A DNA stretch of 64,000 nt from Paenibacillus sp. BIHB 4019 (lineage in GTDB: Bacteria; Bacillota; Bacilli; Paenibacillales; Paenibacillaceae), in NCBI RefSeq assembly GCF_002741035.1, contig NZ_CP016808.1, positions 5,814,501 to 5,878,500 of the forward strand. Direction: 5' to 3'. How positions within the stretch are numbered: the stretch's first letter is position 1; each line of letters begins with the position of its first letter. The notes below the pieces were generated by a model, which worked only from the letters and a program-made list of their open reading frames with translations, was not told where the DNA came from and searched no databases. A program made the translations under genes and the position numbers. Positions 11,731 to 38,741 of the stretch are shown here, in pieces.

Positions 11731-12471
11731 CTAGATATAGTGAGTTTCTTCTTTATTTGCTGGTTCAATAATGCTTCGGATGCTCGCGGCCACCTTCTCC
11801 GGCTCTGACAGCAGAAACATATGTCCTCCTTCAAAGCGATGCAGCCGGACATTATGGGCCCATTTCCTCCATCCGTCAGCTTCCTCCGCGCATTTATAGT
11901 CTTCAGCACCGTAAAACACGTGCATAGGCGCCTGAAGCGGCGTGTGATCGCAATGTTCAAAGGTTTCGAGTGCCTGAAAGTCCGCCCGGAAAGAGGGCAG
12001 GAAAAAGTCGAGCATTTCCCGCTGCTTTACTAGTTCCTCAGGTATGCCGCCTATGCGAATGACGTGATCGAGAAAGGCGTCATCCTTAAGATGCGCTGTT
12101 CGCTCACGCTTGTTTTGTGGCGGCTGAATAGCTGAAATAATGACTGCTTCGGCGACTATTCCTTGCTGCTCCAGCTTTTGTGCCAAACGGTATACAACCA
12201 TTCCACCCATGCTGTGTCCAAACAGGACGAATGGCTGTTGAAAATATGCAGCAAGCTCCCTCGCATACAGCTCAACCAATCCCTCCAAATTTGGAATCAA
12301 GGTCATGCTGTTCGTTCCATGTCCAGGGGGTTCAACCGCCAGCAGCTGGCAATCCTTTTGAACAAAATGGTGCAAAGGCCAGAATGCAGCAGAATATCCT
12401 CCCGCGAATGGAAAACAGATAAGTGGAATTTTTCCTGTTCCCGTGCCCAACGTTTTGAGCAATGGATTCAT
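11731..12471 (-). CDS. Type II thioesterase of the lipopeptide operon (SrfAD-like)
   Basis: A 246-residue alpha/beta-hydrolase that would remove wrongly loaded acyl groups from the carrier domains of the synthetases. The N-terminal ICFPFAGG motif, the nucleophile Ser87 in GHSMGG, Asp191 (YGAED) and His217 (EGGHMFL) are those of type II thioesterases such as SrfAD and GrsT. Its ATG overlaps the stop of the upstream NRPS gene by four bases (ATGA), with AAAGGAGG 11 nt before, so translation is coupled. Length matches SrfAD (about 242). Confidence 0.94.
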   Translation of the reverse strand: MNPLLKTLGTGTGKIPLICFPFAGGYSAAFWPLHHFVQKDCQLLAVEPPGHGTNSMTLIPNLEGLVELYARELAAYFQQPFVLFGHSMGGMVVYRLAQKLEQQGIVAEAVIISAIQPPQNKRERTAHLKDDAFLDHVIRIGGIPEELVKQREMLDFFLPSFRADFQALETFEHCDHTPLQAPMHVFYGAEDYKCAEEADGWRKWAHNVRLHRFEGGHMFLLSEPEKVAASIRSIIEPANKEETHYI

Positions 12472-22400: not shown

Positions 22401-25400
22401 GAAGATCCACGACTTCCCCTTTGTAAGCGGCAACGCTTTGCAAATGCTCACGCTGAGTAACAAGCCATCCCGCTCCGCTATCTTCCAATATATACAACAT
22501 ACGCTGCGCCGGAATTTCCGGGTCAATCGGGAGGAATGCGCCTCCAGCCTTCATAGTGGCAAGGATGGAGATGATCATATCCTCCGTGCGATCGACGAGC
22601 AGTGCGACGAGCTGATTACGTGCTACTCCTCGCTTGCGAAGTATCGAAGCGAGACGGTTAGCCTGCTCGTTAAGCTCACTATACGTAAGCCGCTTCTCAC
22701 CGCAGACGACCGCAATATGTTCAGGCATGAGCTGCACCCGCTCCTCGAACAGGCGATGCAGCGGACGATTCGCCGGCGCGTCTGTCCGCTGGCCACGTTG
22801 TACCTCCAGCATACGGGTTGTCTCTTCTTCGCTCAGCAACGAGAGTTCAGACAATAAGCTTTCTGGATTGTCCAAAGCTCCCTTGACCAGTTGCAGCAAA
22901 TGCCCGCTCCAGCGGCGGATCGTCTCCTGCTGATACAGGGCAGAGGCATATTCAAAGCTGAGGCTGACCGCACCCTCGTGCTCGAAGGCTTCGAGCTTGA
23001 GATCAAATTTCACCGTAGGATACAGCAGCGAATAAGGTGAAATATGCAGGTTGCCAAGCACAAGCGGCGGCATTTCTGCATTTTGCAAATGAAACATAAC
23101 ATTGAATAAAGCGCTGCGCTTCGTATCCCGCACTAGCGGCAGCTGCTCGACCAGCTGTTCAAACGGATAATCCTGATGGTCGAACGCCTGCAGGCTAGCT
23201 TCCTTTACTTCGAGCAAAAAGGCCTTGAACGTTTTTGCCCCTTCGGGCCTGCTCTGCAGCGCAAGCGTATTAATAAACATGCCAGGAATAGCAGCCGTGT
23301 CCGCATGTGTTCGGCCTGCTGCTGGGGAGCCGACGATAATTTGCTCCTGATTCGCATATTTGGAAAGAAAGACCTTGAACACCGCGAGCAGGAACATATA
23401 CATCGTCGTCCCCGTTTCCGCCGTCAATCGCTGAATTTGCTTCGTTAGCATTTCATCCATGCCGAAAACAAATCGTTCCCCCGCAAAATTCTGCTCCTCT
23501 GGACGCGGGAAATCCGTCGGCAAATCGAGCATAGGGATTTCGCCGGCGAAGCAATCAAGCCAATATTGCTCTAGCTGCTTCAGCCGCTCCTGCTGCTCGG
23601 GCGCATGTTGCCAAACGGCAAAATCCTTGTAATGCAGCTTAGGCTCAGGCAGGCTCGCCCCATCGTACAGCTGCGTCAAATCGCGGACGAACAAGCCCAT
23701 CGAGGTGCCGTCCGATATAATATGATGCATATCGATTAAGAGCAAATGGCGAAATTCCGCAAGCTCAACCAGCTTGGCACGAACAAGCGGCGCCTGATGA
23801 AGCGCAAACGGACGAATAAATTCACTAATGATTACCTGCGCCTCGGACTCCGCTGCCTGGACTACATTTAATGGAATGCTTGCATGCTCATTTATGCGCT
23901 GTACAATGCGGCCATCGGCCAGCTCAAACGAGGTTCGCAATATTTCATGCCGATTAACCAATTGCTGTAAAGCCGCCTCCAAACGGACTCGATCCAGCTC
24001 CCCTTCCAGCAACAGTACAGCAGGGATGTTGTAGCTGATGCTCGCTTCTTCCAATTGGTTCAAAATGTACATGCGGCTCTGCGCCGAGGAGACAGGATAA
24101 TAGTTCTGATAAGGCGCTTTCTCAATAGGGGCATAGCTTATCTCGCTCCTCCCCCGTTCAGCCGACCGCTTCATTTCTTCCAAATATACAGCAAGCCGCC
24201 GAATCGTCGGGCGCTCAAACAGTGTTTTAATGGGAAGCTCGACCTGGCATTTCTGGTGAATTTTCGCCGAGAGCATCATTGCATTGAGCGAATGTCCGCC
24301 TACCGCAAAGAAATCATCGTCAATGCCTGGTTTAGCTCCTAGCACCTCCTGCCAAATTTCGCAGAGGAGCTTCTCCTGCTCGCTAACGGGCTCCGCGTAT
24401 TCTATACCTCCTGTCAGACTCGCATCCGGCTCAGGCAGAGCCCTGCGATCGACTTTGCCATTGGGCGTAAGCGGAAGCTTCTCCAGTTGAATAAAAACAG
24501 CAGGCACCATATATTCCGGCAGCGTCCGCAATAACGCCGAACGCAGCTCCACGCCTGATAAATCAAGCGCTCCCGTGAAATAAGCGCATATGTAATTTTG
24601 CCCTGCTTCATCCTGCCTCGTCATGACGGCTGCATCGTCTACCTTATCCACCTGCAGGAGCTCGGATTCAATCTCTCCAAGCTCAATTCGAAAGCCGCGT
24701 ACCTTTACCTGATGATCCATTCGGCCTAAAAATTCGATGTTGCCATCCGGCAGCCATCTTGCCAGATCCCCCGTTAAGTACATCCGCTCACCAGGTGCAT
24801 AGGGATTGTCTACAAACTTCTCCTTCGTCAAATCTTGACGATGCAAATAGCCGAGCGCTACCCCATCTCCGCCAACGCATAGCTGCCCCGGTATGCCTAC
24901 GGGCTGAAGCTGGTTGCTGGCATCCAAAATATATGCGGAGGAATGGCCGAGCGGCTTGCCAATCGGAATATGCCCGGTGTATTCCTTCTCGATCAGGAAA
25001 CAGGTGGAGAAGGTCGTGTTCTCCGTTGGACCATAACCGTTCCATAGCGACAGCTCAGGACACGCATTTCTCACCTGATTGACATGTTTAGGCGACAGCG
25101 CATCTCCACCAATAATTAAATGCTGGACGCTTGCGAACATATTCGCATTTTTCTGCGCCAATTGATTGAATAATGGTGAAGTCAGCCACATCGTCGTAAT
25201 GTTATGCCACCGCAAAAATTGGGCAAATTCCGCTGCATCAAGCAGTACCGATTTGGGGACGGGATGCAAGGATGCCCCATGCAGCAGCGCTCCAAATATT
25301 TCAAACGTGCTGGCATCGAAGCTGATTGCCCCTGTCTGTGCCATCTTCATTTTGTCATGGAACGGAATATATCCAGCATTTTTCACCAAGCGAACGACAT

Positions 25401-27291
25401 TTCTTTGTGAAACCATAACGCCTTTAGGCCGGCCCGTCGAACCGGAAGTATACATCACGTAAGCGAGATCATTCGGCAGACACACGGGCATAAGGTTGCC
25501 CGAATCCAGCAGCTCGTAAGAAGGGCTGTCAATATCAAATTGTTTATATCCCTGCAAACGGCTGGAAAACGGCTCAGAGGTCAGCACCATAGCCGCGGCG
25601 CTGTCCTGCAAAATATAGTTCACCCGATCATCTGGATTGTCGGGATCTATGGGCAAATATGCGCCGCCCGCTTTCAGAATCGCCATAATGCCGACAAACA
25701 TGTCGATCGATTGCTCCACCATAATGCCTACGACGGTATTAGGCTGCACACCGTTAGTTCGCAGCCATTTCGCTAAGCGATTCGCCTTGGCATTCAGCTC
25801 TCCGTACGTCAGCCTGTGATTTTTGAACACGATTGCCAGATGGTCTGGCGTAAGCTCGACCTGCTTCTCGAATAGCTCGCCTATCGTGCTCTCCCGCGGA
25901 TAATCGGCTTTAGTAGCGTTAAACGTCCTCAGCAGCAGCTTCTTATTTTGATCAGTTAGCAGTTGAAGCTGATTCATCGTTGTTTCAGGTGCGCGAACGA
26001 GCAGCTTGGCAAGATGCGTTAAATGTCCAGCCACCTCCTTGACCCACCGATTGTCATACTTGACTGCGTTATACATTAGCTTGAGCGTCCATTGCTTGGC
26101 AGGGTGAACGATGAGATTGAAATCATAATTCGTTTGCTCGAATGCCCCTGCCACCTTGACGGCGAAGCCTAACCGCTGCTCTTCTGTCCCATTTTTCAAC
26201 TGCTGGTCCAATGGATAGTTCTCAAAGGCTACTAGATGGTTGACGAGATGCTGCTTGAGCGCGGTACGCTTCTGAATCTCATACAGCGGGACGTAATCGT
26301 AAGGCTCTGCCGCAAGAGCTGCTTGCTGCATCGTTTGCATTAGCTCGCTGAAAGGGGCGTCTTGCCCGATTCGCAAGCGCATAGGGACCGTATTGATAAA
26401 CAAGCCAACCATGCTTTCAATGCCAGGAATGGCAGAAGGCCGTCCAGACACTACCGTGCCAAATACGACATCATTCGTATTATTGAATTTGCCCAGCAAT
26501 AGACCCCACATCGCTTGCAGCAGGTTCGGAAGGGTCACCTGATAGCGGCCTGCCAAGTCGGTTAGCGCTTGAACCTGCTCCTCTTGCCAAATGACGGCAA
26601 CCTCTTCGCTGACGTAGCTGGCGGCGTTCGCCGCAGCAGAATGGTTCCAGTGCGGAACAGAGGCAGGCTGCTCGAAATCAGCCAAAGCCTGCTCCCAATA
26701 GGCGTAAGCCTCGTCCTTGTCCTGCTTTTCAAGCCATTTAATATAATCGGCGTACGGCTTTTCAATTGCTCCAGGCAGCGGCAGCCCGCTGCGAAGAGCT
26801 TCATAATTTTCAAATAGACGCTTCATCAGAACGCCCAGGCTCCAGCCATCCAATAAAATATGATGATTGCTCCAAATCAAGTGGTAAGTGCTGTCCGTCA
26901 GTTGAAATACAGCGATTCTCAGCAGCAAATCCTTCGCCAAATGAAAGCCCTTCGCCTGATTATCCCGCTTGAAGGACGCAAGACGCTGCTGCTGGCGATC
27001 TGGCTGCAAATGAGCTATATTTTCAAAATAAACCTCTGCTTTACGCTCTCCTAGCACGATTTGCCGCGGGCGCTGCAGCTGCTGATGGACAAATACCGTT
27101 CGTAAAATATCGTAGGTACGGATTAAATAATCCACGCTTTGCTCAAGTAAGGCTACATCCAGCTCGCCCATAAGCTCCAGCTCCAATTGGGTAAAATAAG
27201 AGCTGGAATCCGGTTCCAGCATTGCATGATAAAGCATGCCTTCCTGCATCGGTGTTAATGGATATACTTTTTGAATTTTAGGCTGAGTCAT
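16447..27291 (-). CDS. Lipopeptide synthetase subunit 2: C-A(Val)-T, C-A(Asp)-T, C-A(Leu)-T-E
   Basis: A 3614-residue trimodular NRPS, the counterpart of SrfAB/LchAB (about 3580). Rough domains: C 10-450, A 470-960, T 980-1050; C 1070-1500, A 1520-2020, T 2035-2105; C 2120-2560, A 2580-3080, T 3095-3165, E 3180-3600. The first C opens PLTPMQEGMLYH, the form that takes a D-residue from the preceding E domain; the two others open SSAQxRMYILxQLE, the L-L form. Specificity codes are D-A-F-W-I-G-G-T-F-K (Val; core near 25281-25330), D-L-T-K-V-G-H-I-G-K (Asp; near 22140-22185) and D-A-W-F-L-G-N-V-V-K (Leu; near 18985-19015). The last carrier has the LGGDSIKA form seen before E domains, and the E domain (HHLVIDGVSWR, NYLGQFD) makes D-Leu6. 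No out-of-frame comS-like gene was found inside it. Confidence 0.96.
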   Translation of the reverse strand: MTQPKIQKVYPLTPMQEGMLYHAMLEPDSSSYFTQLELELMGELDVALLEQSVDYLIRTYDILRTVFVHQQLQRPRQIVLGERKAEVYFENIAHLQPDRQQQRLASFKRDNQAKGFHLAKDLLLRIAVFQLTDSTYHLIWSNHHILLDGWSLGVLMKRLFENYEALRSGLPLPGAIEKPYADYIKWLEKQDKDEAYAYWEQALADFEQPASVPHWNHSAAANAASYVSEEVAVIWQEEQVQALTDLAGRYQVTLPNLLQAMWGLLLGKFNNTNDVVFGTVVSGRPSAIPGIESMVGLFINTVPMRLRIGQDAPFSELMQTMQQAALAAEPYDYVPLYEIQKRTALKQHLVNHLVAFENYPLDQQLKNGTEEQRLGFAVKVAGAFEQTNYDFNLIVHPAKQWTLKLMYNAVKYDNRWVKEVAGHLTHLAKLLVRAPETTMNQLQLLTDQNKKLLLRTFNATKADYPRESTIGELFEKQVELTPDHLAIVFKNHRLTYGELNAKANRLAKWLRTNGVQPNTVVGIMVEQSIDMFVGIMAILKAGGAYLPIDPDNPDDRVNYILQDSAAAMVLTSEPFSSRLQGYKQFDIDSPSYELLDSGNLMPVCLPNDLAYVMYTSGSTGRPKGVMVSQRNVVRLVKNAGYIPFHDKMKMAQTGAISFDASTFEIFGALLHGASLHPVPKSVLLDAAEFAQFLRWHNITTMWLTSPLFNQLAQKNANMFASVQHLIIGGDALSPKHVNQVRNACPELSLWNGYGPTENTTFSTCFLIEKEYTGHIPIGKPLGHSSAYILDASNQLQPVGIPGQLCVGGDGVALGYLHRQDLTKEKFVDNPYAPGERMYLTGDLARWLPDGNIEFLGRMDHQVKVRGFRIELGEIESELLQVDKVDDAAVMTRQDEAGQNYICAYFTGALDLSGVELRSALLRTLPEYMVPAVFIQLEKLPLTPNGKVDRRALPEPDASLTGGIEYAEPVSEQEKLLCEIWQEVLGAKPGIDDDFFAVGGHSLNAMMLSAKIHQKCQVELPIKTLFERPTIRRLAVYLEEMKRSAERGRSEISYAPIEKAPYQNYYPVSSAQSRMYILNQLEEASISYNIPAVLLLEGELDRVRLEAALQQLVNRHEILRTSFELADGRIVQRINEHASIPLNVVQAAESEAQVIISEFIRPFALHQAPLVRAKLVELAEFRHLLLIDMHHIISDGTSMGLFVRDLTQLYDGASLPEPKLHYKDFAVWQHAPEQQERLKQLEQYWLDCFAGEIPMLDLPTDFPRPEEQNFAGERFVFGMDEMLTKQIQRLTAETGTTMYMFLLAVFKVFLSKYANQEQIIVGSPAAGRTHADTAAIPGMFINTLALQSRPEGAKTFKAFLLEVKEASLQAFDHQDYPFEQLVEQLPLVRDTKRSALFNVMFHLQNAEMPPLVLGNLHISPYSLLYPTVKFDLKLEAFEHEGAVSLSFEYASALYQQETIRRWSGHLLQLVKGALDNPESLLSELSLLSEEETTRMLEVQRGQRTDAPANRPLHRLFEERVQLMPEHIAVVCGEKRLTYSELNEQANRLASILRKRGVARNQLVALLVDRTEDMIISILATMKAGGAFLPIDPEIPAQRMLYILEDSGAGWLVTQREHLQSVAAYKGEVVDLRAHQLQSEPTAIMKHADVPDPDEQVNDLAYVIYTSGTTGLPKGVQLGHRGLVNYAFWFMSEANVTALDKTVLLSSFAFDLGYTSLFPVLLAGGELHIVASEIVTEPDELSHYLYERGITYLKLTPSLFHLLVHSHSFLTSKPFASLRLVVLGGERIHTSDLALFHAQYANTELMNHYGPTESTIGAIAQYIDTSRLDSYAQQPTIGQPIYNAAAYVLGAGNQLVPAGVVGELHLSGPGLAHGYLNQPELTAERFMASPFAAGELLYKTGDLVRQLPDEKLAYIGRVDDQVKIRGYRIELGEIEMQLLEHEPITKVVVMPFSAEGQLPELCAYYSADQELTVSDLRDWLTARLPSYMVPTRFIRLNVIPLTSNGKVDRRLLPAPEPITAQTRPVLALPNNELEHQLCLLWKEVLGIEAIGTEDSFFDLGGHSLKAIMLISNMQNHMNRKVPLKVLFEQPTIRQLARYMEEAAVTVDSLKAECIAPAQIKAHYPVSSAQKRMYILHQLEPESISYNMPSALLLEGELELGRLEKALAAMIDRHETLRTSFAELDGTPVQMVHASVDFQLNVLNTVEEQMDETIRQFIRPFDLNKAPLLRAGVIQLNNQQHLLLIDMHHIIADGISRSVFIKELAGLHAGEILEKPELHYKDYTVWNLEPGQQQRIGEQEQYWLEQFQQPAADLHLPTDFPRPAVQSFAGDLLRFDVPEATARQLRKLALDTGTTLHMALLAAFSTFLARISGQEDIVIGSAVTGRTTAEVQTMPGMFVNTLALRFAPEHGKTFKQLLAEAKETCLRALENQSYPFEELVNKLDLPRDMSRNPLFNVMLTVELPDKQELQLERLTIAPYETAHRTAKFDLTLGAFESPAGMGLQLEYATDLFSRETIACWSVYILRILQAAALNPDIVLSEIEMLAPAEQQLILHTWNDTGQAVPQHQTIHELFEAQALRTPDHAAVVYKGQQWTYHELNARANLLARQLIAKGIYAEQPVGIMVKPSLAMAAGVLAILKAGGAFVPIDPDYPEPRITYMLADSGAKVLLTQAGITVPAAFRGEVMLLSDEPLSREDEACLYEEPNPAATTTSDKLAYIIYTSGTTGQPKGVMIEHRSLVNLCFWHNEAFEISDQDRSAKYAGFGFDATVWEMFPYWIAGAQIHMIEEAIRMDVVSLNAYFEQHRITVTFLPTQLCEQFMELDNDSLRILLTGGDKLKRSIATRYCLINNYGPTESTVVATSMRIESGAPLLPIGRPIGNTRIYILGNGHALQPQGVAGEICIAGRGLARGYWNLPEETARKFVSNPYNPNERIYRTGDLGRWLEDGSIEYLGRIDHQVKVRGYRIELAEIEAQLTQLPTVKASTVAAVQDAAGHTSLCAYIVPAGAFDFAQLRTDLAQRLPEYMIPPYWVHLDSLPVTPNGKVDRRALPVPSMNAESADYKEPRNELERFLASIWQDVLGAERVGISDNFFTLGGDSIKAIQMASRLYKHGWKLEMKHLFQHPAIEQVSPYLQWVKGQQVEQGPVEGEAQLTPIQQWFFEQSFINPHHWNQSIMLHAPAGWDTALIRTTMNKITEHHDALRMNYAPLKNTNEYRQLYRDVQHSTYTLEVIHLEDASNAAAAVARHAEQVQRSIDLTSGPLVKLVQYKTPDGDHLLIIIHHLVIDGVSWRILLEDFASGYAQAKQGQNIVFQEKTNSYKDWAAGLAAYADSEAFLKQADYWRQIERMSISPLPSDNVVRERKAKDSAAVSIELSNEETLLLLTDVHRPYGTEINDILLTAVGLAIHQWTNGKAIGLNLEGHGREEIISELNVSRTVGWFSAQYPIVLNMEHAGDLPLLIKTIKENQRQIPDKGIGYGMLRYLSSEKHKSGLVFTLKPEISFNYLGQFDSEVQTDLFSPSVYDMGAQTSPESEALYALSLSGMVRGGRLVVSCAYNKKQYMRATIDQLMDRFHHHLLVLIQHCTAKTDRDFTPSDFTASELQLEEVGDIFDMLAEKFG

Positions 27292-27346: not shown

Positions 27347-30300
27347 TTAAATCATTTGCAGCAGGTTATCCAGCTCTTCCAAAGTGAGCTCATCGTCCCC
27401 CAGATCGCTCGGCGTCAGCTCGCCGCCCTTCTGGCTGATGCAATGCTCGATGAGGCGCAGCAGTGCAGCTTGTATCCTCTCGCTAAATGAAACCATCGTC
27501 TGCTCCTCAAACTCCAGCCCGTTATATGCGATCGTCACGCTCAACACATCCCCTTCAATGAAGCCGATCACATCGATTGCCGTTACCCTCTCCGTATTTG
27601 GGCTGAGCGGATTCCCAGGCGATAATGGAGAGCGGCCAAATAGGCCTGATTCCGTCATCTCATCAAACTGCCCCAAATAGTTAAAGCTGATCTCCGGTTT
27701 GGAGGAGAAGGCGAGCCCCGCTTTATGCCCATCAGCTGCCAAATATCGCAGCAGGCCATAGCCGATTCCCTTATGGGGAATATGGCGCAAATCTTCTTTC
27801 ACCCGTTTTATTTGATAGGCTATATCATCCGTATAACTCATATCGAGCACAACTGGATATTGGGAGGTGAACCAGCCTACCGTACGTGATACGTTAATAG
27901 CTTCCACTATTTCTTCGCGCCCGTGGCCCTCCATGTTAAGAAGAATTTGATTATGCTCGCTCCACTCCTTAACAGCCAGGCCGAGCGCAGTAAGCAATAT
28001 ATCATTCATTTCGGTGCGATAGGTCAGATGGACACTGGTAGTCAACTGCTTCGTCTCGTTCTCGCTGAGCGAAAAGGCAGTTGTCCGCGTATGCCGCATG
28101 CGCTGATCCGTCGCAGCATGGTCTTTGGGCAGCGGGTTTACCGCAATACTCTCCAGCTGCTTCCAATACTCTTTTTCCTTAAGCAGCGCTTTGGAATTTG
28201 CATATAGCTGCAGCTGAGAGGCCCATTCTTGATAGGAGTGTGTTTTGTCCGCAAGCACGATGGTTTCTCCCTTGGAGGCCTGTAAATAGCCTATCGCGAA
28301 ATCCTCCAGCAAAATGCGCCATGATACGCCGTCTACGACCAAATGATGAATGACCAGCAGCAGATGATCACCTTGACTCGTTTGAAAAATGGCTGCTTTC
28401 AGAAGGGGCCCGTTATGCAGATCAATACTTGCATGAATCCGCTCTGTCTCCAGCAAAATAGCTTGCTCAAGCTCTTCCGCAGCGACAGCCCCCGGCCTAA
28501 TCACCTCCAGCTTCACTGCACAATCGGCTGGTTTGCCATTATGCTGAGCAATTGCTTCGTTTCCTTCCTGCGTGAATACGATGCGAAGCGCATCGTGATG
28601 CTCCATAATCGCGCCAAGCGCCTGCTCGGTAAACTGCGGATCCAAGCCCGATGCAGCGTGCAGCATGACGGACTGATTCCAGTGGTGCTTGTCCGTAAAG
28701 TCCCGTTCGAAAAACCACTTTTGCACAGGCGTTAAGGCTACTTCTCCCTCAACGGCACCTTGATCCACTTGTCCCCCTGCTATCACTTGCAAGTAGGAGC
28801 TCACCTGTTCAATGGTTGGGTGCTGGAATAAATCCTTCATCTCAAGCTTCCATCCATGCTTGTATAATCGATTCGCCATTTGAATGGATCTAATGGAATC
28901 CCCACCCAAGGAGAAGAAGTTGTCACTGATTCCGATGCTTGAAGCGCCAAGTACCTCCTGCCAAACTTGTACTAGCAATTCCTCCTGTGCATTCCGTGGC
29001 GCCTTATAGTCCGCTGCTCCGTTATCAAGCACTGGCTGCGGCAGCGACTTGCGATCTACCTTGCCGTTAGGCGTGAGCGGGAGCCTATCCATATTCACCC
29101 AATATTTCGGAACCATGTAGGCGGGTATGCTTTGAGCCAGATCTGCTCTCCATTGTTCGGAATCGAGCTGTGAATCGTTAATCGGAACGACATAACCGCA
29201 TAGCGCCGTGTCTCCCTGGGCATCCTGCACCGCTACGACTGCTGCCGCCTGTACATGCGGATTTCGAAGCAAATGTGCCTCAATCTCGGATATCTCGATT
29301 CGATAACCACGAACCTTCACCTGTTGGTCGATCCGTCCACCGTATTCTATGCTGCCATCCGCTTGCCATCTGCCGGAATCGCCGGTGCGATACATCCGCT
29401 CGCCAGGCTGAAAAGGATCGGGAACAAAACGCTGCTCCGTCTCCTCAGGGCGGTTCATGTATCCACGAGCCAGCCCGCTGCCTGCAATCCATATTTCTCC
29501 GAACGTACCGATCGGCTGCAGCTGTTGGTCAGGACCGAGAATATAGATGCGCGTGTTGTCAATTGGCATACCGATTGGCAGCGCCTGTGCCATAGGAGGA
29601 ATGGCGATGCTGGTTGCTACGACGGTATTTTCGGTTGGCCCGTAATTATTGACAAGCGTGTATGCATGCGGAGCAAGACGCTTCAGCTTATCGCCTCCAG
29701 TCAGCAGTACACGCAAGGACCGATTATCCAGCTCCATAAATTGCTCACAGATTTGCGTCGGCAAAAATGTAATCGATATATGATTTTGCTCGAAATAAGC
29801 ATTAAGCTGCATCATATCAAGGCGAAGAGCCTCATCAATGACATGAACCTGCGCTCCGGCCAGCCAATACGGGAACATTTCCCACACGGAGGCATCAAAC
29901 CCGAATCCGGCATATTTAGCACTGCGATCCAAATCAGTAACGAAGAAAGCTTCATTATGCCAATAGCATAGGTTCACAAGTGATTGATGCTCAATCATCA
30001 CTCCCTTAGGCTGGCCCGTCGTCCCCGAGGTATAGATGATATAGGCTAAATGGTTCGGGCCTGTCGCGGTTTGCGGGTTTGCTTCCTCGCTGAGATCCGT
30101 TGTATCTGCCCAGCAGCCGCACTCCCCATCCAGCAAAATCACCTCTCCATTAAAGATAGCCGGAACAGATGACGTCGTTTGCGTCAGCAAAATCGCAGCT
30201 CCGCTGTCCGCGAGCATATAGGCAATGCGTTCCTCCGGGTATTCAGGGTCGATCGGCACAAACGCGCCGCCCGCCTTAAGAATGGCAAGCACACCGGCAG

Positions 30301-33300
30301 CCATTTCTAGCGAAGGCTTGGACATAATGCCAACTGGCTTATCCGCGCCAATTCCTTTAGCTATCAGTACTCGTGCTAAGCGATTTGCTCTCGCATTCAG
30401 CTCCAGATACGTCCACTTCCGTCCATTGAATATGACGGCGTGCTGACTTGGTGTTCGCAGAACTTGCAGCTCGAACAATTGCTGAACCGTATAATGCTGT
30501 GGATAGTGGACAGCCGTATCATTAAATTCAACTAATAACCGTTCCCGCTCCGCTTCAGGAAGCATGCTCGCATCTTTAAGCAGAATACCGGATTCGGCTG
30601 TTATATGGCGGACCAGTTCGGTGAAATAAACGCTCCAGCGCTTTATCGTCTCCTGTTTGAACAAGGCGGTGTTGTAAATAAAGCGGCATTCAATAATACC
30701 GTCTTCCTGTTCTACTGCGCTTAAGGTTAAATCGAATTTAGCCGTCTTGTCCTCGAACGGATAAAGCTCCAGACGCATGCCCTCCAGGCTCAAATGCTGC
30801 GTTTCCAGCATTTGCAGATCAAACATGGCGTCGAACAATGGATTGCGGCTCATATCCCGCTGCAGCTTAACCTTTGCCACCAGCTCCTCGAATGGGTAGT
30901 CCTGATTCTCCAATGCGCCAAGTGCCATTTGTCTTACTTCCTGCAAGTAAGCCGCAAACGATTTATCGCCGTTCGGAAAACTGCGCACAGCGAGTGTGTT
31001 GATGAACATGCCTACAAGGCTTGACAGATCCGCATGTGCTCTGCCAGCAATCGGCGAGCCGACCACGATGTCCTCCTGCCCGCTCAGCTTGGACAAGAAC
31101 AAGCTATATGCTGCAAGCAGCGTCATATGCAGTGTCGTGCCTGCCGCTTGGCCCAAGCGATGAAGCGCCTCGGTCAGCTCGGGATTTAAATGAAACGCAA
31201 CCTGCTCGCCTTCAAAGCTTTGAATGGAAGGACGGCTGCAATCGGTCGGCCATTCTAGCACCGGAGGCTCTTCAGCAAATTGCTCCAGCCAATAGCTTTC
31301 TTGTTTCCCGTAAGCTTCCGTCTGCAGAAATGACTGCTGCCAAACCGCATAATCTTTATATTGAATGCGCAGCGGTTCAAGCTGCTTACCGGCATACAAT
31401 TGGGTCAGATCCTCAAGCAGCAATCCAACGGACATACCGTCAGAAATAATATGGTGCATATCAAACAGCAGCAGATGCTCCTCTTCCGACAGCTTTACAA
31501 GCATAGCTCGAACAAGCGGCGCCGTATTCAAGGAGAATGGACGGATAAACGCTTTAATTATTTGCTGTATATCAGCATCAGCAGCTTTGGAAGCAGCATC
31601 AACAGCAGATGTTGCTATAGCAGCAGCTTCGTCTGCTTCATGGAAAACGATAGAAAAATCCACTTCCTCATGGATGCGCTGCACCGGCTTTCCAGAGTCC
31701 GTTATTTCAAACGATGTGCGAAGTGCCTCATGCCGCTGCACGAGCGACCTAATGGCCGTTTCCAGCTGCTCCTTGTCAAGCAGCCCCTTGAGCTTCAGCA
31801 CGGTTGGCATGTTATAGCTTTGCTCCGCGCCTTCGAGCTGCTGAAGCACGTATAATCTTCTCTGGGCGGAGGATGCAGGATAAACCTCCTGAGTCCCAGC
31901 AGCAGTTATTGCTGCATAATGCTGCTCCCCTGCTTGCAATACAGTTTGCGACACAACAACCGCCAAGCTTGCTATCGTTGGTGCCTGGAATAGCACCCTA
32001 AGCGGCAGCTCGACCTTCATAACTTGATGGATATGCGCGAGCAGCGCCATCGCTTTAAGGGAATGCCCGCCCAGCTCGAAGAAATTATGCTGTACGCCAA
32101 TCGGCTCTATACCTAGAACCTCCTGCCATATTGTTACAAGCTGCTTCTCGGTCTCATTGCGTGCAGCTTCATAGTTCACACTGGATATGGCGCCAAGATC
32201 TGGCACAGGCAGCGCCCGGCGATCGACCTTCCCGTTGCCAGTAAGCGGCAGCTCATCCAGCTGTATAAAGACAGACGGCACCATGTAGGCTGGCAGCTCC
32301 TTCGCCGCTAGCTCTCCTAATTCGCTGTTTGAAATCGGCAGATCAGTGACGACATAGGCACAAAGCAGCTTATCGCCTACTGCTGTATCTACAGCAAGCA
32401 CAATAGCCTCCCGTATCGCCTCCGCCCTGCGCAATTGATGCTCAATTTCGCCTAATTCAATGCGCTGTCCGCGAATTTTAATCTGCTGATCGATGCGCCC
32501 AATAAACTCAATATTTCCATCTGGCAGCCATCGGGCTAAATCGCCTGTACGGTAAAGCCTGCCCGCATCCGCAAAGAGATGTGGAACAAACTTTTCAGCA
32601 GTCAGCTCTGGGCGGTTCGCATAACCGAGCACAAGCCCATCGCCCCCTACACACAGCTCCCCAGCTGCGCCAATCGGCTGAAGCTGGTTAAAGGCATCGA
32701 CGATATATACGCTCGTATTGCTTACAGGTCGGCCGATTGGAATAGCTGCAGCCTCATCTGCTACTGCGTCTACTTCATAGTAAGTAGTGAAAACCGTGCT
32801 TTCCGATGGCCCATACATATGCAGCAGCTTTCCTGGTCCCGCAGCCTGAACCGCTTTGCGCACATGCTCAACCGATGCCCGCTCCCCGCCAAACAGCACT
32901 TTGCGAATGCCGCAAATGCTGGCCGGATGAATATCGACAAGCAGATTGAACAACGCCGTTGTAATCATAAGCACCGAGATTCGTTCCTGTTCAATAACCT
33001 GCGGCAATCTGGAAATGTCCAGTATAGTGTCCTTGCTGGCAAGCACCAGCTTGGAGCCATGCAGCAGGGAGCCGAACATATCAAACATAAAAGCGTCAAA
33101 TACGTAATTAGAAAGCGACAGGAATACGTCCTGCGCAGATATGGATAAATAATTCGTATTTATGACCGTCCGGATGATGTTGGCATGGGTTACCATATTC
33201 CCTTTAGGCGTACCTGTCGTTCCTGATGTATAAGTCAGATTGGCGAGCATTCCCGAGCTGATTGGAATGTCCAAATTGGAAGCATCCCCTTCGTACAAAT

Positions 33301-36300
33301 TCGCATTATCAGCAGCTATGCAGCCCCCGGCAAAATCAAGATTTTCCACCTCAGACAGCAAGGCATGCTCCGTCAGCAGCAAAACGGCTTCGCTATCGGC
33401 TAGCAAATATTTCATTCGCTCCTGCGGATGCTCGGGATCAATGGGAACGTATGCGCCGCCCGCCTTCAAGATTGCGAGAATGCCGATGACCATTTCGGCC
33501 GAGCGATGTGTCCATACAGCCGCTACTTTTCCAGGGCGCACGCCCCGGGAATAAAGCGTTCTGGCCAGCTGATTCACCCTGCTATTTAGCTCCTGATAAG
33601 TAAGTTCCGTTTTGCCAAATACGAGCGCCGTGCGATCAGGCGTCCTGTTCACCTGCTGCTCAAAAAGCTCGACGAGCGTGCTTTCCTTAGGATAGACGGT
33701 TGCTCGTGGATTAAAGCCAGCAACCAGCTGCTCCTTCTCCTCCATTAGCAAAATATCCACTGCTCCCAGCTTCAGCGAAGGCTGGTTTGCAATCTCCTCA
33801 AGCAGCTTCACATAATGCGTAAGCAGCTGATTGATCGTAGTCCGTCCATACAGCTTAATGCTGTAATCCATATCTAGCGTAATGCTGTCTAATTCTTCTT
33901 TCGCCTGCAGCGTCAAATCGAATTTAGCCACATGAACGTTCGTCTCCTGAATGGACATGCGCAAATTCCCAAGCACCGGAAGCCCCTCATAGGCATTCTG
34001 CAAAATAAATATCGTATCAAAAAGTGGATTGCGGCTCATATCTCTCGGCAAATGAAGCTTTCCCACAAGTCTCTCGAACGGATAGTCCTGATGCTCAAAA
34101 GCATCAAGCACATTGCTGCGCACCTGTTGCAGCAGTTCACCGAAGGAGCCTTGGCGGTTAATCTCCGTCCGAATCGCCAATGTTTGAATGAACATTCCGA
34201 CGATTCCATCCAGCTCTGCATGGTTTCTTCCCGCTACAGGCGTCCCGATTACCAGCTCCTCCTGCCCCGTATATTTGGCGAGCGCAGCATAATAAGCTGC
34301 AAGCAGCACCATATACAGCGTCGCCCCGCTTTCCTCTGCCAGCTTGTTCAGCTTATCCTTGAGCCTGCGATCAAGCATCGCTGATACTCTGTCGCCTTCG
34401 AAGCTCTGTACAGCCGGTCGCGGATAATCGGTTAGCAGCTGCAGCACAGGCAGCTCTCCAGAAAGCTTATCCAGCCAGTACTTTTCTTCCTTCAAGTAGC
34501 CCGTTTCCGCCTGCTTCGCTTGCCATACGGCGTAATCCTTATATTGCAGCCTAAGCTCTGGCAGCTTCTCTCCAGCATAAAGCTGAGACAGCTCCTTCAA
34601 AATAATGCCAATTGAAACTCCATCAGAAATCAAATGATGCATATCAAAAAGCAGCAAATGCTCGTCCTTGGAAAGCGGCTGAAGCTCTGCTCTTATTAAT
34701 GGCGCCACACCGAGGTCAAAGGGGCGGACGAACGCGCTCAGTGCTGCTTGGGCAGACTGTCCCCCGGACTTTTTCACCGTGATGACAAACGGAGCAGAAG
34801 CATGGATGGTCTGCACAGGAACACCCTGTAGAACCGAGAAAGAGGTACGCAGCGCTTCATGCCTCTGAACGAGCTGTCCAAAAGCGTCCTTTAAGCGCGG
34901 AATGTCTATATCCCCTTCCAGCAGCACTGCAGCCGGCATATTGTATCCGATTCCAGCTGACTCTAGCTGGCTAACGATGTACACCCGCTGCTGCGCAAAA
35001 GAGAGCGGATACGTTTCATTGGATTCCGCGCACTCTATCGCAGTATACGTTGAACGCTCAGCCTCCCCGATATATTGCGCCAGCGCATAGACGGTTGGGC
35101 TCTCGAACAACACCTGCAGCGGAATGGCTGCGCCAAACTTCTGATGTGCCCGTGCCAGCATCTCCATCGCCTTAAGCGAATGTCCCCCAAGCTCGAAGAA
35201 GGAGTCATATAAACCAATCCGCTCTACTCCAAGAACAGCCTGCCAAATTTGCGCGAGCTGTACTTCTAATTCCAATGCCGGAGAGGCATAATCGCTGTCG
35301 CTGATCGACATAACCACTTGAAGCAGCAGCTTCTTGCGGTCCACTTTACCGCTTGAGGTTAGCGGAATCTGATCCAGCTGCGCAAAATAAGACGGTATCA
35401 TATACATAGGCAGCTGTTTGGATAAAAATTCTCTTAACTCCGCGATGGATAGCGTTTCCTCTGCTGCATTCAACACCACATAAGCGCAAAGCTCTTCTGA
35501 ACGAAGCAGTACAACTGCCCTGCTGATCTTCTCATGCTTCTGCAAAGCAGCAGCTATTTCTCCAAGTTCAATCCGGTACCCGCGGATTTTCACCTGATCG
35601 TCCTGCCGTCCCAAAAATTCAAGCATGCCATTAGGCTTCCAACGAGCCAAATCGCCTGTTTTAAAAAGTCTTTCTCCGGGTACATAAGGATTGTCTATGA
35701 ATGTCTCAGCCGTTAATTCCGGCAAATTCAAATAGCCGCGCCCGACGCCAGCCCCGCCGATGTACAGCTCGCCCGCTGCACCTGCTGGCTGCATTCTTCC
35801 ATTAGCGTCGAAAATATACAATCGGTTGTTTCCAAGTGCGCGCCCAATAGACAGATAAGCGCTATCCAATTCTAATTCCATATCGGGCCGCGCTATATGC
35901 AGGGCGGAAGCGTCAACGCAGCATTCCGTTGGCCCATAGACATTCGTAATCGTTGGCAGCCGTGCTGCTGCTCCACTTGCCTTAAAATGTTTGGCAAATT
36001 CTCGTATCGTCGCATGCGGAAGCGCCTCGCCGCCAATCAGCATATGCGCAAGCTTAATACCGTCCAGCTGTTTTGCAGCAAGCAGCATTTGCAGATGTGC
36101 CGGTGTACCATCCGCCACATCAATCTGTTTGCTTCGGTAATAATCCGCTAAGGCTTGTCCGCTTGTAAGCGATGCTTTAGGAATAATGTGCAACGTATGC
36201 CCTAGCAGCAGCGCTGCAAAAATTTGCTGTACGGACGCATCAAAATGGAATGGAGCAACGAGTGACAGCTTTAAGCCCGGTCCATACTGCTCGTACACAG

Positions 36301-38215
36301 AGCTGTGCAAAGCTGTAATTAGATGAGCGACTTGAAGATGCTCAATCATGACGCCCTTCGGGTTGCCGGTTGTGCCGGATGTATAAATGATATAAGCCAG
36401 ATGATGGCTGCTCACTGGCTCATCCAAATTGCTGCATTCCCCATAGAGCAGCGTAGCCTTATCCAGAACTAATACGTCTATTGCATCAGGCACAGTCAGG
36501 CTTTCCAGCAAATTCGGCTCGGTTAGCAGCATCTTGGCTCCCGAATCCTGCAGCATAAACTGGATTCTTTCTTGCGGGAAGTCGGGATCCATCGGCACAT
36601 AGGCGCCGCCTGCTTTCAATACCCCCATAATAGCTGTAATAATCTGCTTTGATCGTCCCATGCATATGGCTACTGGCGTATCGGGCCCAACACCTTTGGC
36701 TTTTAAAATCCGCCCTAATCGATTGGAACGCTCATTCAGCTCCTTGTAGGTCAGTTCCCCTTCTTCATCAACTACAGCTGTCTGCCATGGCAGGATCGCC
36801 GCCTGCTGCTCAAATAGCCCATGAAGCATCTGATCATTGGGAACGTTTAAATGCACATTACCCGCTTGCGCCAGCAGCTTGCGCTTCTCCTCCAACGTAC
36901 AAATCTCCAGCTCGCCAATTGCTTTTGCGGGATCATTGAGCGCATCTTCAAGCAAAACGAGGATGCCATTGTAAATATGATCCACTTCTTCCTTCGCAAA
37001 CAGCTCTGTACGGTAATCCATGTCTATCGTTATCTGGCTTGTATCCCAGCGCTCCTTCACATGGATGGAAATATCATTGACTTCATGCTCGCTGAATAGA
37101 GGTTCGATTATGAACGACAAGCCCTCCTTCTGCTCCCAATTCATCACCTGGTATTCGAGTGATAAGCCAAATAATCTTCCTGCCTGACCATGAAGCTCCC
37201 GTAAATCATTCACCAGCACATTATAGGGGTATTTCTGATGGCGAATAAGCGTTAGTTGATCCTTCATCCGCTGCTGCACAAAACGGAGAAAATCTTGACT
37301 CTCATCGACATATGCGCGCATTGGAATGGTGGAGACAAACATGCCAAGCATCTGCTTTTCCTTCTTGCTCGTCCGATTTCCCATAAACGTTCCAAGTACT
37401 GCTTCCTGCTCCCCTGTTATCCGGTACATATAGATGTACAGAAGCGACAGAAACAAAGACAGCATGCTCACGCTGTTATCCTTGCAGAAATGCTGAAGCT
37501 TGTGCTGGAGCGGCTGCGGAAGCACTTGTGAAAACCGCGCTGCTTCCGTACGTATGCGATTGATGTCACATTGCTTTAGCGATGTGGACTCTGGAAGAGC
37601 CTTGAACTGCATATTCCAATAATTTTTATCCTTCTGAAAGCGATCGGACTGTTCATATTCCAGCTCGCTTTCTATGTAATCCGCATACGAAATTTGCTGC
37701 GGCAGCAGCTTGCCGCTATCAAGTACCAGTTCCAGGTAGCCGTCAATAATTTGGTTCCCCATTAAGACGTTCGAGATGCCGTCAGAAATAATATGGTGGA
37801 TTTTGGAGAACAGCCAAATCTCCCTGCTGCTTATTTTGAATAGACGAAAATAAAATAAAGGACTATCATAAAGCGGCATTGGTGTACGCGCCTCTGCCTG
37901 CCCCCAAGCCATAATAGCTTCCATGTCTCCAGCTTCGCTGAAATCAGCCGTTTCTAGTTCAAATGGTGCATATTCAGCTATATATTGCTTGGGCTCTTCA
38001 CCGCTGCTGCCACTCCCGGCTATTCTAAGCCTCAAAGCATCATTGCTGCGAACAACCTGCTGGATTACGTTTATAAGCCTGGTGTTATCCATTCCCTCAT
38101 GCGATCTAAGCTTGAGAAACCCGCTCAAATTGGCCATACTGGTCCCGGGGTAAAACTGCTCGGTATACCAAATTCGTTTTTGCGCATGTGTTAATGGATA
38201 ATAAAAACGTTTCAT
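27347..38215 (-). CDS. Lipopeptide synthetase subunit 1: starter C-A(Gln)-T, C-A(Leu)-T, C-A(Leu)-T-E
   Basis: A 3622-residue trimodular NRPS, the counterpart of SrfAA/LchAA (about 3585). It begins directly with a condensation domain (about 1-440; KIHHIISDGIS) with no loading module before it, as in lipopeptide starter C domains that attach a beta-hydroxy fatty acid to residue 1. Rough later domains: A 455-960, T 975-1045, C 1065-1490, A 1510-2000, T 2015-2085, C 2105-2560, A 2580-3075, T 3085-3155, E 3170-3610. Codes read D-A-Q-D-L-G-V-V-D-K (Gln; core near 36220-36250), D-A-F-M-L-G-M-V-F-K (Leu; near 33065-33110) and D-A-W-F-L-G-N-V-V-K (Leu; near 29880-29915). The Gln code is the one that separates lichenysin from surfactin (Glu has Lys at the third place). 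The start has GGGGG upstream and sits behind a c-di-GMP riboswitch. Confidence 0.96.
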   Translation of the reverse strand: MKRFYYPLTHAQKRIWYTEQFYPGTSMANLSGFLKLRSHEGMDNTRLINVIQQVVRSNDALRLRIAGSGSSGEEPKQYIAEYAPFELETADFSEAGDMEAIMAWGQAEARTPMPLYDSPLFYFRLFKISSREIWLFSKIHHIISDGISNVLMGNQIIDGYLELVLDSGKLLPQQISYADYIESELEYEQSDRFQKDKNYWNMQFKALPESTSLKQCDINRIRTEAARFSQVLPQPLQHKLQHFCKDNSVSMLSLFLSLLYIYMYRITGEQEAVLGTFMGNRTSKKEKQMLGMFVSTIPMRAYVDESQDFLRFVQQRMKDQLTLIRHQKYPYNVLVNDLRELHGQAGRLFGLSLEYQVMNWEQKEGLSFIIEPLFSEHEVNDISIHVKERWDTSQITIDMDYRTELFAKEEVDHIYNGILVLLEDALNDPAKAIGELEICTLEEKRKLLAQAGNVHLNVPNDQMLHGLFEQQAAILPWQTAVVDEEGELTYKELNERSNRLGRILKAKGVGPDTPVAICMGRSKQIITAIMGVLKAGGAYVPMDPDFPQERIQFMLQDSGAKMLLTEPNLLESLTVPDAIDVLVLDKATLLYGECSNLDEPVSSHHLAYIIYTSGTTGNPKGVMIEHLQVAHLITALHSSVYEQYGPGLKLSLVAPFHFDASVQQIFAALLLGHTLHIIPKASLTSGQALADYYRSKQIDVADGTPAHLQMLLAAKQLDGIKLAHMLIGGEALPHATIREFAKHFKASGAAARLPTITNVYGPTECCVDASALHIARPDMELELDSAYLSIGRALGNNRLYIFDANGRMQPAGAAGELYIGGAGVGRGYLNLPELTAETFIDNPYVPGERLFKTGDLARWKPNGMLEFLGRQDDQVKIRGYRIELGEIAAALQKHEKISRAVVLLRSEELCAYVVLNAAEETLSIAELREFLSKQLPMYMIPSYFAQLDQIPLTSSGKVDRKKLLLQVVMSISDSDYASPALELEVQLAQIWQAVLGVERIGLYDSFFELGGHSLKAMEMLARAHQKFGAAIPLQVLFESPTVYALAQYIGEAERSTYTAIECAESNETYPLSFAQQRVYIVSQLESAGIGYNMPAAVLLEGDIDIPRLKDAFGQLVQRHEALRTSFSVLQGVPVQTIHASAPFVITVKKSGGQSAQAALSAFVRPFDLGVAPLIRAELQPLSKDEHLLLFDMHHLISDGVSIGIILKELSQLYAGEKLPELRLQYKDYAVWQAKQAETGYLKEEKYWLDKLSGELPVLQLLTDYPRPAVQSFEGDRVSAMLDRRLKDKLNKLAEESGATLYMVLLAAYYAALAKYTGQEELVIGTPVAGRNHAELDGIVGMFIQTLAIRTEINRQGSFGELLQQVRSNVLDAFEHQDYPFERLVGKLHLPRDMSRNPLFDTIFILQNAYEGLPVLGNLRMSIQETNVHVAKFDLTLQAKEELDSITLDMDYSIKLYGRTTINQLLTHYVKLLEEIANQPSLKLGAVDILLMEEKEQLVAGFNPRATVYPKESTLVELFEQQVNRTPDRTALVFGKTELTYQELNSRVNQLARTLYSRGVRPGKVAAVWTHRSAEMVIGILAILKAGGAYVPIDPEHPQERMKYLLADSEAVLLLTEHALLSEVENLDFAGGCIAADNANLYEGDASNLDIPISSGMLANLTYTSGTTGTPKGNMVTHANIIRTVINTNYLSISAQDVFLSLSNYVFDAFMFDMFGSLLHGSKLVLASKDTILDISRLPQVIEQERISVLMITTALFNLLVDIHPASICGIRKVLFGGERASVEHVRKAVQAAGPGKLLHMYGPSESTVFTTYYEVDAVADEAAAIPIGRPVSNTSVYIVDAFNQLQPIGAAGELCVGGDGLVLGYANRPELTAEKFVPHLFADAGRLYRTGDLARWLPDGNIEFIGRIDQQIKIRGQRIELGEIEHQLRRAEAIREAIVLAVDTAVGDKLLCAYVVTDLPISNSELGELAAKELPAYMVPSVFIQLDELPLTGNGKVDRRALPVPDLGAISSVNYEAARNETEKQLVTIWQEVLGIEPIGVQHNFFELGGHSLKAMALLAHIHQVMKVELPLRVLFQAPTIASLAVVVSQTVLQAGEQHYAAITAAGTQEVYPASSAQRRLYVLQQLEGAEQSYNMPTVLKLKGLLDKEQLETAIRSLVQRHEALRTSFEITDSGKPVQRIHEEVDFSIVFHEADEAAAIATSAVDAASKAADADIQQIIKAFIRPFSLNTAPLVRAMLVKLSEEEHLLLFDMHHIISDGMSVGLLLEDLTQLYAGKQLEPLRIQYKDYAVWQQSFLQTEAYGKQESYWLEQFAEEPPVLEWPTDCSRPSIQSFEGEQVAFHLNPELTEALHRLGQAAGTTLHMTLLAAYSLFLSKLSGQEDIVVGSPIAGRAHADLSSLVGMFINTLAVRSFPNGDKSFAAYLQEVRQMALGALENQDYPFEELVAKVKLQRDMSRNPLFDAMFDLQMLETQHLSLEGMRLELYPFEDKTAKFDLTLSAVEQEDGIIECRFIYNTALFKQETIKRWSVYFTELVRHITAESGILLKDASMLPEAERERLLVEFNDTAVHYPQHYTVQQLFELQVLRTPSQHAVIFNGRKWTYLELNARANRLARVLIAKGIGADKPVGIMSKPSLEMAAGVLAILKAGGAFVPIDPEYPEERIAYMLADSGAAILLTQTTSSVPAIFNGEVILLDGECGCWADTTDLSEEANPQTATGPNHLAYIIYTSGTTGQPKGVMIEHQSLVNLCYWHNEAFFVTDLDRSAKYAGFGFDASVWEMFPYWLAGAQVHVIDEALRLDMMQLNAYFEQNHISITFLPTQICEQFMELDNRSLRVLLTGGDKLKRLAPHAYTLVNNYGPTENTVVATSIAIPPMAQALPIGMPIDNTRIYILGPDQQLQPIGTFGEIWIAGSGLARGYMNRPEETEQRFVPDPFQPGERMYRTGDSGRWQADGSIEYGGRIDQQVKVRGYRIEISEIEAHLLRNPHVQAAAVVAVQDAQGDTALCGYVVPINDSQLDSEQWRADLAQSIPAYMVPKYWVNMDRLPLTPNGKVDRKSLPQPVLDNGAADYKAPRNAQEELLVQVWQEVLGASSIGISDNFFSLGGDSIRSIQMANRLYKHGWKLEMKDLFQHPTIEQVSSYLQVIAGGQVDQGAVEGEVALTPVQKWFFERDFTDKHHWNQSVMLHAASGLDPQFTEQALGAIMEHHDALRIVFTQEGNEAIAQHNGKPADCAVKLEVIRPGAVAAEELEQAILLETERIHASIDLHNGPLLKAAIFQTSQGDHLLLVIHHLVVDGVSWRILLEDFAIGYLQASKGETIVLADKTHSYQEWASQLQLYANSKALLKEKEYWKQLESIAVNPLPKDHAATDQRMRHTRTTAFSLSENETKQLTTSVHLTYRTEMNDILLTALGLAVKEWSEHNQILLNMEGHGREEIVEAINVSRTVGWFTSQYPVVLDMSYTDDIAYQIKRVKEDLRHIPHKGIGYGLLRYLAADGHKAGLAFSSKPEISFNYLGQFDEMTESGLFGRSPLSPGNPLSPNTERVTAIDVIGFIEGDVLSVTIAYNGLEFEEQTMVSFSERIQAALLRLIEHCISQKGGELTPSDLGDDELTLEELDNLLQMI

Positions 38216-38243
38216 CTAATTACCCCCAATAACTTGTTTTGAT

Positions 38244-38273
38244 AAATAAAAAACTGCCCGGATGTTGGACAGT
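38244..38273 (-). terminator. Riboswitch-controlled intrinsic terminator
   Basis: On the minus strand ACTGTCC-AACATCC-GGGCAGT followed by TTTTTT forms an intrinsic terminator between the c-di-GMP aptamer and the start of the first NRPS gene (38215). The upstream arm CTGTC-CAAC can instead pair with GTTGACAG inside the 3' part of the aptamer, giving an antiterminator with one bulge. Confidence 0.85.
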
Positions 38274-38283
38274 CTGCTCCCAT

Positions 38284-38372
38284 TTTCCGGCAACCTGTCA
38301 ACCGTAGCATCGTCTGATGCCTTAGGCCATGGCTTTGCGTCCCTATGTTTCCATAGGTATGCCTTTATCCAT
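38284..38372 (-). promoter_or_regulatory. c-di-GMP-I (GEMM) riboswitch controlling the lipopeptide operon
   Basis: The leader RNA contains the hallmark GGGACGCAAAGCC after a P2 hairpin CCUAUG-GAAA-CAUAGG with its GAAA tetraloop. P3 carries CCUAAG opposite UACGG, nearly the canonical 11-nt tetraloop receptor, topped by GCAUC-AGAC-GAUGC. P1 is GGCAUACC with GGUUGCC. All these are conserved elements of the class I cyclic di-GMP aptamer. An intrinsic terminator follows 11 nt downstream and the NRPS start another ~30 nt on, so the element should control read-through. The competing antiterminator uses the aptamer's 3' strand, predicting that bound c-di-GMP favours termination. Confidence 0.93.
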
Positions 38373-38412
38373 TTTATGTTTGTTTTATTCCATTCCTAAT
38401 CTATAAACAATC

Positions 38413-38439
38413 CATTCGGCAAATAGTTACGTTTTTTTA
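38413..38439 (-). promoter_or_regulatory. Possible sigma-D-type promoter of the lipopeptide operon
   Basis: On the minus strand TAAA (38439-38436), exactly 15 nt, and GCCGAATG (38420-38413) resemble the sigma-D motility promoter TAAA-N15-GCCGATAT; the first five bases of the -10 match. It would start the transcript about 35 nt before the aptamer. The TAAA lies in an A-rich run, which weakens it. A sigma-A alternative (TTGTTT, 17 nt, TAAAAC) is poor. Confidence 0.35.
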
Positions 38440-38721: not shown

Positions 38722-38741
38722 CATGGCGGCATATTGGTTAT

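Follow-up and report, generated by a model that had tools for sequence, protein, structure and literature searches.

Does the second messenger c-di-GMP directly gate the synthesis of a lipopeptide surfactant in Paenibacillus sp. BIHB 4019 and, if so, in which direction, and how far does such control extend among related operons? The question is raised by the leader of a 26-kb nonribosomal peptide synthetase (NRPS) operon in the 64,000-nucleotide stretch of DNA analyzed here (hereafter, the window), for which an initial annotation proposed a c-di-GMP class I (c-di-GMP-I) riboswitch. We document here the aptamer, the terminator, the alternative pairings, the type of the operon, and the recurrence of the leader in relatives.

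A c-di-GMP-I aptamer precedes a lichenysin-type operon

The leader and the operon comprise the following features.

38286..38373, minus strand: c-di-GMP class I aptamer with a GAAA-capped P2 and its receptor (RF01051, 74.8 bits; residues checked on the alignment)
27347..38215, minus strand: lchAA/srfAA-like NRPS, 3622 aa, three modules (predicted Gln, Leu, Leu; Pfam: 4 Condensation, 3 AMP-binding and 3 PP-binding stretches; pocket motifs)
16447..27291, minus strand: lchAB/srfAB-like NRPS, 3614 aa, three modules (predicted Val, Asp, Leu; motifs alone)
12468..16385, minus strand: lchAC/srfAC-like NRPS, 1305 aa, one module (predicted Ile) and a thioesterase domain (Pfam, motifs)
11731..12471, minus strand: external thioesterase, 246 aa (Pfam PF00975, 182.9 bits)

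In an Rfam scan of the whole window, RF01051 (c-di-GMP-I, GEMM-I) is the sole family with a match reaching the gathering threshold, and this match, at 38286-38373 on the minus strand, covers the model from end to end (1-87 of 87) with 74.8 bits against a gathering score of 35 and an E value of 7.5e-13, which rules out a chance resemblance. The initial annotation, which expected a covariance model hit at 38284-38372 on the minus strand, had both the class and the strand right and the coordinates right within a few bases. The aptamer falls within the normal range of the family and is predicted to bind its ligand. Class Ib variants of the family sense cGAMP, and G20 is characteristic of the c-di-GMP type whereas A20 is characteristic of the cGAMP type; the existence of such variants speaks for another cyclic dinucleotide as the ligand, but the window has a G where Vc2 has G20 (the row reads AAGGCA, Vc2 numbering), so that we regard this alternative as extremely improbable.

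The synthetase genes encode 3+3+1 modules on three proteins plus an external thioesterase (the second protein read from motifs alone), the same layout as in srfA. Read by eye from the motifs with the Stachelhaus key, the seven A-domain pockets give Gln-Leu-Leu-Val-Asp-Leu-Ile, the residue order of lichenysin A; the first A domain, DAQDLGVVD (Gln), and the seventh, DGFFLGVVF (Ile), distinguish the predicted product as lichenysin rather than surfactin. Pfam domains and pocket motifs thus agree with the earlier description of a lichenysin-type operon on the strand of the aptamer; the operon is intact, and its predicted product has the lichenysin A order. Elsewhere in the window, at 54636-57758, a 1040-aa ORF has an N-terminal match to GNAT acetyltransferases (residues 31-140), with no further Pfam match at E 1e-5.

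The host genome (7.25 Mb, a single contig) encompasses five c-di-GMP-I aptamers, along with 21 GGDEF and 8 EAL matches. The class is common in the genus, with at least one such aptamer in 50 of the 51 genomes. No relative of the window's NRPS was found within about 1.5 kb of any of 34 other aptamer loci that were taken, out of a longer list, from the host genome and the genus; within the loci examined, the regulated gene is of an unusual type for RF01051. Further aptamers in the host precede a chemoreceptor-like gene (L135, read by eye) and a gene for a transglutaminase-like protein. Tandem c-di-GMP-I aptamers (L004/L005, C1:1868621-1868878) precede the gene of a GH26-family secreted protein.

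The leader recurs in Bacillus and Paenibacillaceae

We collected 97 loci (L037-L133), 32 of them from named genomes, with the first 453 residues of the synthetase as the query, and the rest from whole-genome searches, the latter holding only about 1.5 kb upstream, and scanned all of these with Rfam. A c-di-GMP-I aptamer lies just upstream of the orthologous gene in 13 of the 97 loci, three of which (L098, L126, and L127) duplicate a leader already counted. Altogether, the riboswitch leader accompanies the orthologous operon in 11 organisms of Bacillus and Paenibacillaceae, namely, the window, Paenibacillus piri, B. paralicheniformis, B. haynesii, B. swezeyi, B. glycinifermentans, Aneurinibacillus tyrosinisolvens, a Cohnella MAG, G185, G532, and G817 (the last two branch inside Bacillus in the tree described below), plus one diverged copy. 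The latter, in P. xerothermodurans (L073:4823-4961; L100 has the same leader), is missed at the Rfam threshold; with R1, a covariance model that we built from nine leaders, its score is 73.4 bits (E 1.8e-15). This leader may be decaying.

The comparison with other surfactin and lichenysin operons that had been suggested at the outset thus yields the riboswitch in 10 other organisms and in none of the 10 leaders of the B. subtilis complex (L075-L082, L085, and L131; L130 and L132 repeat two of these), which have nothing at the Rfam gathering threshold and no significant R1 match (the best being L078 with 13.3 bits, E 0.36; L082 has 8.6 bits, E 2.8). No riboswitch at the gathering threshold was detected in the MAG RYN_352 (L069), in the more distant starter modules, or in 14 clostridial loci.

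Within the genus of the host, the starter domain has no close orthologue in any other genome (51 searched), the best match being 46% identical, and among the 394 genomes of the family, an E value of 1e-140 for this domain is reached by two, the host and G435, the leader of which is that of the Cohnella MAG (identical over 200 bases). The aptamer of P. piri (L066:4841-4928) has a C in the column of Vc2 G20, where the eight other leaders of the alignment have G; its ligand specificity may be different or lost.

Terminator and competing helices of the expression platform

The segment directly behind the aptamer is an expression platform that consists of a terminator and the helices competing with it.

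38251..38275, minus strand: intrinsic terminator, a hairpin with a T-rich tail behind it (terminator scan, 9 pairs; hairpin alone -10.7 kcal/mol)
38286..38290, minus strand: CCGGA, 5' strand of the antiterminator common to the relatives, overlapping the 3' CC of the aptamer (alignment)
38258..38262, minus strand: TCCGG, 3' strand of this shared antiterminator, in the loop and 3' arm of the terminator (alignment)
38295..38302, minus strand: GTTGACAG, 5' strand of the window-specific antiterminator, proposed in the initial annotation (alignment, folding)
38264..38272, minus strand: CTGTCCAAC, 3' strand of the window-specific antiterminator, in the 5' arm and loop of the terminator (alignment, folding)

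The scan confirmed the intrinsic terminator that had been noticed behind the aptamer: the hairpin at 38275-38251 (minus strand) is located between the aptamer and the ATG, with the first gene starting at 38215, about 35 nt past the terminator. Three terminator-like sites were found in the 801 bases scanned, compared with a shuffled mean of 0.8; the remaining two overlap each other and lie behind the upstream gene. A simple promoter scan of 38100-38900 identified no sigma-70-like site on the minus strand (two were found, both on the plus strand), which counts against the OFF-switch explanation.

We aligned nine leaders (A1) and, with the diverged P. xerothermodurans copy included, 12 leaders (A2). 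The helix formed by the 3' CC of the aptamer and the adjoining tail with the loop and 3' arm of the terminator appears to be shared, being paired in 93.7% of 79 cells in A1 and in 93.4% of 106 cells in A2; shifts by 1-3 columns leave no more than 58.5%. Changes on both sides of this helix were detected at two pairs in A1 (106 of 500 shuffles were as good) and at three pairs in A2 (10-21 of 500), so that covariation lends it modest support. Of the shared helix, the window retains five core pairs; three outer pairs are broken, and a gap falls at a fourth. Conversely, the pairing GTTGACAG:CTGTCCAAC that the initial annotation put forward is complete in the window alone, where it is the leading alternative fold in silico; as a general antiterminator of the relatives it was rejected, with 41.7% of 72 cells paired in A1 and 43.2% of 95 in A2. 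We read this as a rewiring of the expression platform of the window relative to the shared antiterminator, as suggested by alignment and folding.

Folding of the growing transcript was modeled for four of the 12 leaders (the window, B. paralicheniformis, the Cohnella MAG, and L128), with the aptamer either free or clamped, the clamp being a hard constraint that holds the CC unpaired and includes no ligand energy. When the RNA of the window is free, the predicted GTTGACAG:CTGTCCAAC helix reaches 0.46-0.79 at lengths 109-119, compared with at most 0.41 for the shared helix; with the aptamer clamped, the former is at 0.00 at all lengths. In the free RNAs of the three relatives, the shared helix reaches 0.95-1.00. 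Clamping did not abolish the shared helix of these relatives at intermediate lengths, where leftover pairs persist at some lengths (means up to 0.90, with those pairs alone present), and the terminator merely forms earlier. Such an advance of the terminator was predicted in all four leaders: the summed pairing of the terminator, clamped vs free, is 6.6 vs 0.3 in B. paralicheniformis (length 122), 7.3 vs 0.2 in the Cohnella MAG (length 123), 8.8 vs 1.2 in L128 (length 130), and 6.6 vs 3.6 in the window (length 121). After completion of the 3' arm, the terminator dominates the free RNA as well in three of the four leaders, the exception being the Cohnella MAG; for the window, the free-energy minimum is -41.6 with the terminator vs -38.5 with the GTTGACAG:CTGTCCAAC helix and -36.9 with the shared helix. 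Given that the terminator wins in the full-length free RNA, switching would have to be kinetic.

Quorum sensing genes coexist with the riboswitch

The initial annotation surmised that the riboswitch replaces the ComX/ComA control of srfA. However, the host genome contains a run of consecutive homologues of ComQ, ComX, ComP, and ComA at a distance of about 2.4 Mb from the operon (L134:3379-7664, C1 about 3397878-3402163).

L134:3379-4302: ComQ homologue, polyprenyl synthetase (homology)
L134:4427-4600: ComX homologue, 57-aa peptide ending in WT (weak match)
L134:4634-7030: ComP homologue, HisKA_3 kinase (homology)
L134:7008-7664: ComA homologue, LuxR-type regulator (homology)

Given that the ComX match is weak (25.8 bits in the genome, with a cut-off of 25, and 30.7 bits as a protein), the identification of comQXPA relies on the ComQ, ComP, and ComA neighbors; the same ComX search gave no match in 14 control genomes, including B. 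subtilis. In the licheniformis group, furthermore, the promoter region can be aligned to its counterpart in the B. subtilis complex, so that an srfA-type promoter region and the riboswitch coexist there. On these two grounds, the notion of a replacement was abandoned.

The ComA box consensus is TTGCGG-N4-CCGCAA. No match to it with up to three mismatches was found in 38216-38741, but the ComA of the host may use another box; in the whole window, there are 29 such matches, compared with 36.5 expected by chance.

In the MAG RYN_352, which is the nearest neighbor of P. piri in the tree, homologues of ComQ, ComP, and ComA (36, 35, and 57% identity; L069:584-4817) are located directly before the riboswitch-less lch-type operon. 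The remaining 39 sequences searched, several of which hold only 1.5 kb upstream, gave no match to these genes; a quorum sensing set without the riboswitch is one case, not a rule.

The riboswitch as a probable transcriptional OFF switch

A single-cell reporter in B. subtilis is said to have been described by Weiss et al. in J Bacteriol in 2019. As to whether such a riboswitch had been reported before, which the initial annotation left open, the literature answers in the affirmative for B. licheniformis: a c-di-GMP-specific riboswitch upstream of the lch operon (the lchAA leader) has been used as a c-di-GMP reporter, in which bound c-di-GMP causes termination before yfp, that is, OFF, and the yfp reporter drops in a B. 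subtilis nrnA nrnB mutant that contains threefold more c-di-GMP by LC-MS/MS (PMC6256023). A riboswitch reporter of this kind is also used in PMC9757072. The circuit is accordingly already known from B. licheniformis lchAA, and the window is an orthologous member; by analogy with that leader, OFF, the sign proposed in the initial annotation, is the likely one here.

Both leaders combine a class I aptamer with a terminator right behind it, before orthologous lichenysin operons. The window differs from B. licheniformis lchAA (the licheniformis-group orthologues in this analysis being L067, L068, L070, and L074) in belonging to another family, with starter domains 57-58% identical, in a weaker hairpin (-10.7 vs -18.0 kcal/mol), in a terminator-to-ATG distance of about 35 nt vs about 150, and, by alignment and folding, in its antiterminator; no licheniformis-type ComA promoter region was recognized in the window.

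Some c-di-GMP-I riboswitches act as ON switches, which lends a measure of plausibility to the possibility that c-di-GMP promotes read-through of the window leader. Both antiterminators, however, consume aptamer nucleotides and predict an OFF switch, and clamping the aptamer advances the terminator in each of the leaders folded; together with the OFF response of the orthologous leader (PMC6256023), this renders an ON switch very improbable.

A more serious concern is that c-di-GMP is bound by the aptamer with little effect on the platform in vivo, which would be locked OFF or leaky, so that a promoter or a regulator such as the host ComA dominates. Even in free RNA, no full-length fold surpasses the terminator in stability, the host encodes comQXPA, and Bc1 of B. 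thuringiensis, which, like the window, has a c-di-GMP-I aptamer with intrinsic terminators but, unlike it, controls mcpE and contains two terminators, appeared locked OFF in vivo (PMC11218506). Against this stand the response of the orthologous B. licheniformis leader in vivo (PMC6256023), the terminator-excluding helices predicted in the window and, built differently, in the relatives, and the lack of a recognizable ComA-like box in 38216-38741. We consider poor switching unlikely.

Very probably, then, this class I c-di-GMP riboswitch is a transcriptional OFF switch of the lichenysin-type operon, where the binding, the sign, the promoter, and the physiology are the inferred components. The OFF switch is favored by the aptamer, the terminator before the ATG, the operon type, the occurrence of the leader in 10 other organisms, the shared helix, the predicted folds, the B. 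licheniformis reporter, and the GGDEF and EAL proteins of the host; the stability of the terminator in full-length free RNA, the modest covariation, the lost outer pairs of the window, and the apparently locked Bc1 count against it. Under this mechanism, bound c-di-GMP would lock the 3' part of the aptamer, the adjacent hairpin would form, and transcription would end some 35 nt short of the first gene. When c-di-GMP is scarce, the 3' part of the aptamer would pair instead with the 5' arm and loop of the terminator (GTTGACAG:CTGTCCAAC, favored in the window) or, alternatively, with the loop and 3' arm (the shared helix of the relatives), and the antiterminated polymerase would enter the 26-kb operon, so that surfactant would be produced in low-c-di-GMP cells.

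Apparent loss of the riboswitch in the B. subtilis line

In the B. subtilis complex, the orthologue of the window operon is srfA, with starter domains 48-51% identical; there, unlike in the window, no riboswitch was recognized at the Rfam gathering threshold or with R1 in the 10 leaders examined. In a midpoint-rooted tree of 29 starter domains (L128, L129, L131, and L133 were included, and the frameshifted L082 as well as long outgroups, L105, L106, and L109, were left out), L128 and L129, both riboswitch-bearing, group with the B. subtilis complex (99/98); the licheniformis group, which also bears the riboswitch, attaches to this assemblage (100/99). With the diverged copy counted, riboswitch presence requires four changes on the tree, compared with a shuffled mean of 9.6, and none of 500 shuffles was as low. 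Given this placement and the four changes, the absence from the B. subtilis complex is most simply explained by one loss, a reading that the tree favors, although, as a tree of a single domain, it is also compatible with transfer.

The leader of B. atrophaeus (L085:4696-4851) aligns nearly end to end with the aptamer and terminator of L128, with a score of 54 compared with 39 for the largest of 1000 dinucleotide shuffles (for L129, 49 compared with 37). When three leaders of the licheniformis group served as references, the score was reached by 1, 3, and 7 of 2000 shuffles, the alignments covering the 3' part and the terminator only, and the R1 model gave 7.3 bits (E 9.1). The srfA leader of this one genome resembles a degenerate c-di-GMP riboswitch and its terminator. 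The nine other leaders of the B. subtilis complex, compared with L128 and L129, were matched or exceeded by 40 to 734 of 1000 shuffles, so that a relic is claimed for B. atrophaeus alone; in the first alignment round, the counts for eight other leaders were 6 to 370 of 500. Among these, B. tequilensis (L076) at first seemed a candidate, with 6 of 500, but then gave 724 and 734 of 1000 and is not claimed.

On balance, we lean towards the scenario in which the c-di-GMP riboswitch is ancestral to the surfactin and lichenysin operons of Bacillus and Paenibacillaceae, srfA being a derived state that lost it and left a relic in B. atrophaeus, RYN_352, with its comQXPA-like set directly upstream, having lost it separately, and the window having kept the aptamer but rewired the antiterminator. 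In our literature search, outside of which most subscription papers lie, we recognized no description of the riboswitch outside B. licheniformis or of its loss in B. subtilis. New in this work are the breadth across relatives, the shared and rewired antiterminators, and the probable loss of the riboswitch from the B. subtilis line.

Implications

A switch driven by a second messenger, so far described for a single leader in B. licheniformis, now extends to a family of surfactant operons, in which the supply of surfactant would be linked to the motile/sessile signal. With the shared and the rewired expression platforms joined to nearly identical aptamers, these leaders form a natural pair for comparison. 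The evolutionary claim, that the best-studied surfactin operon formerly had the switch and lost it, is thereby made testable.
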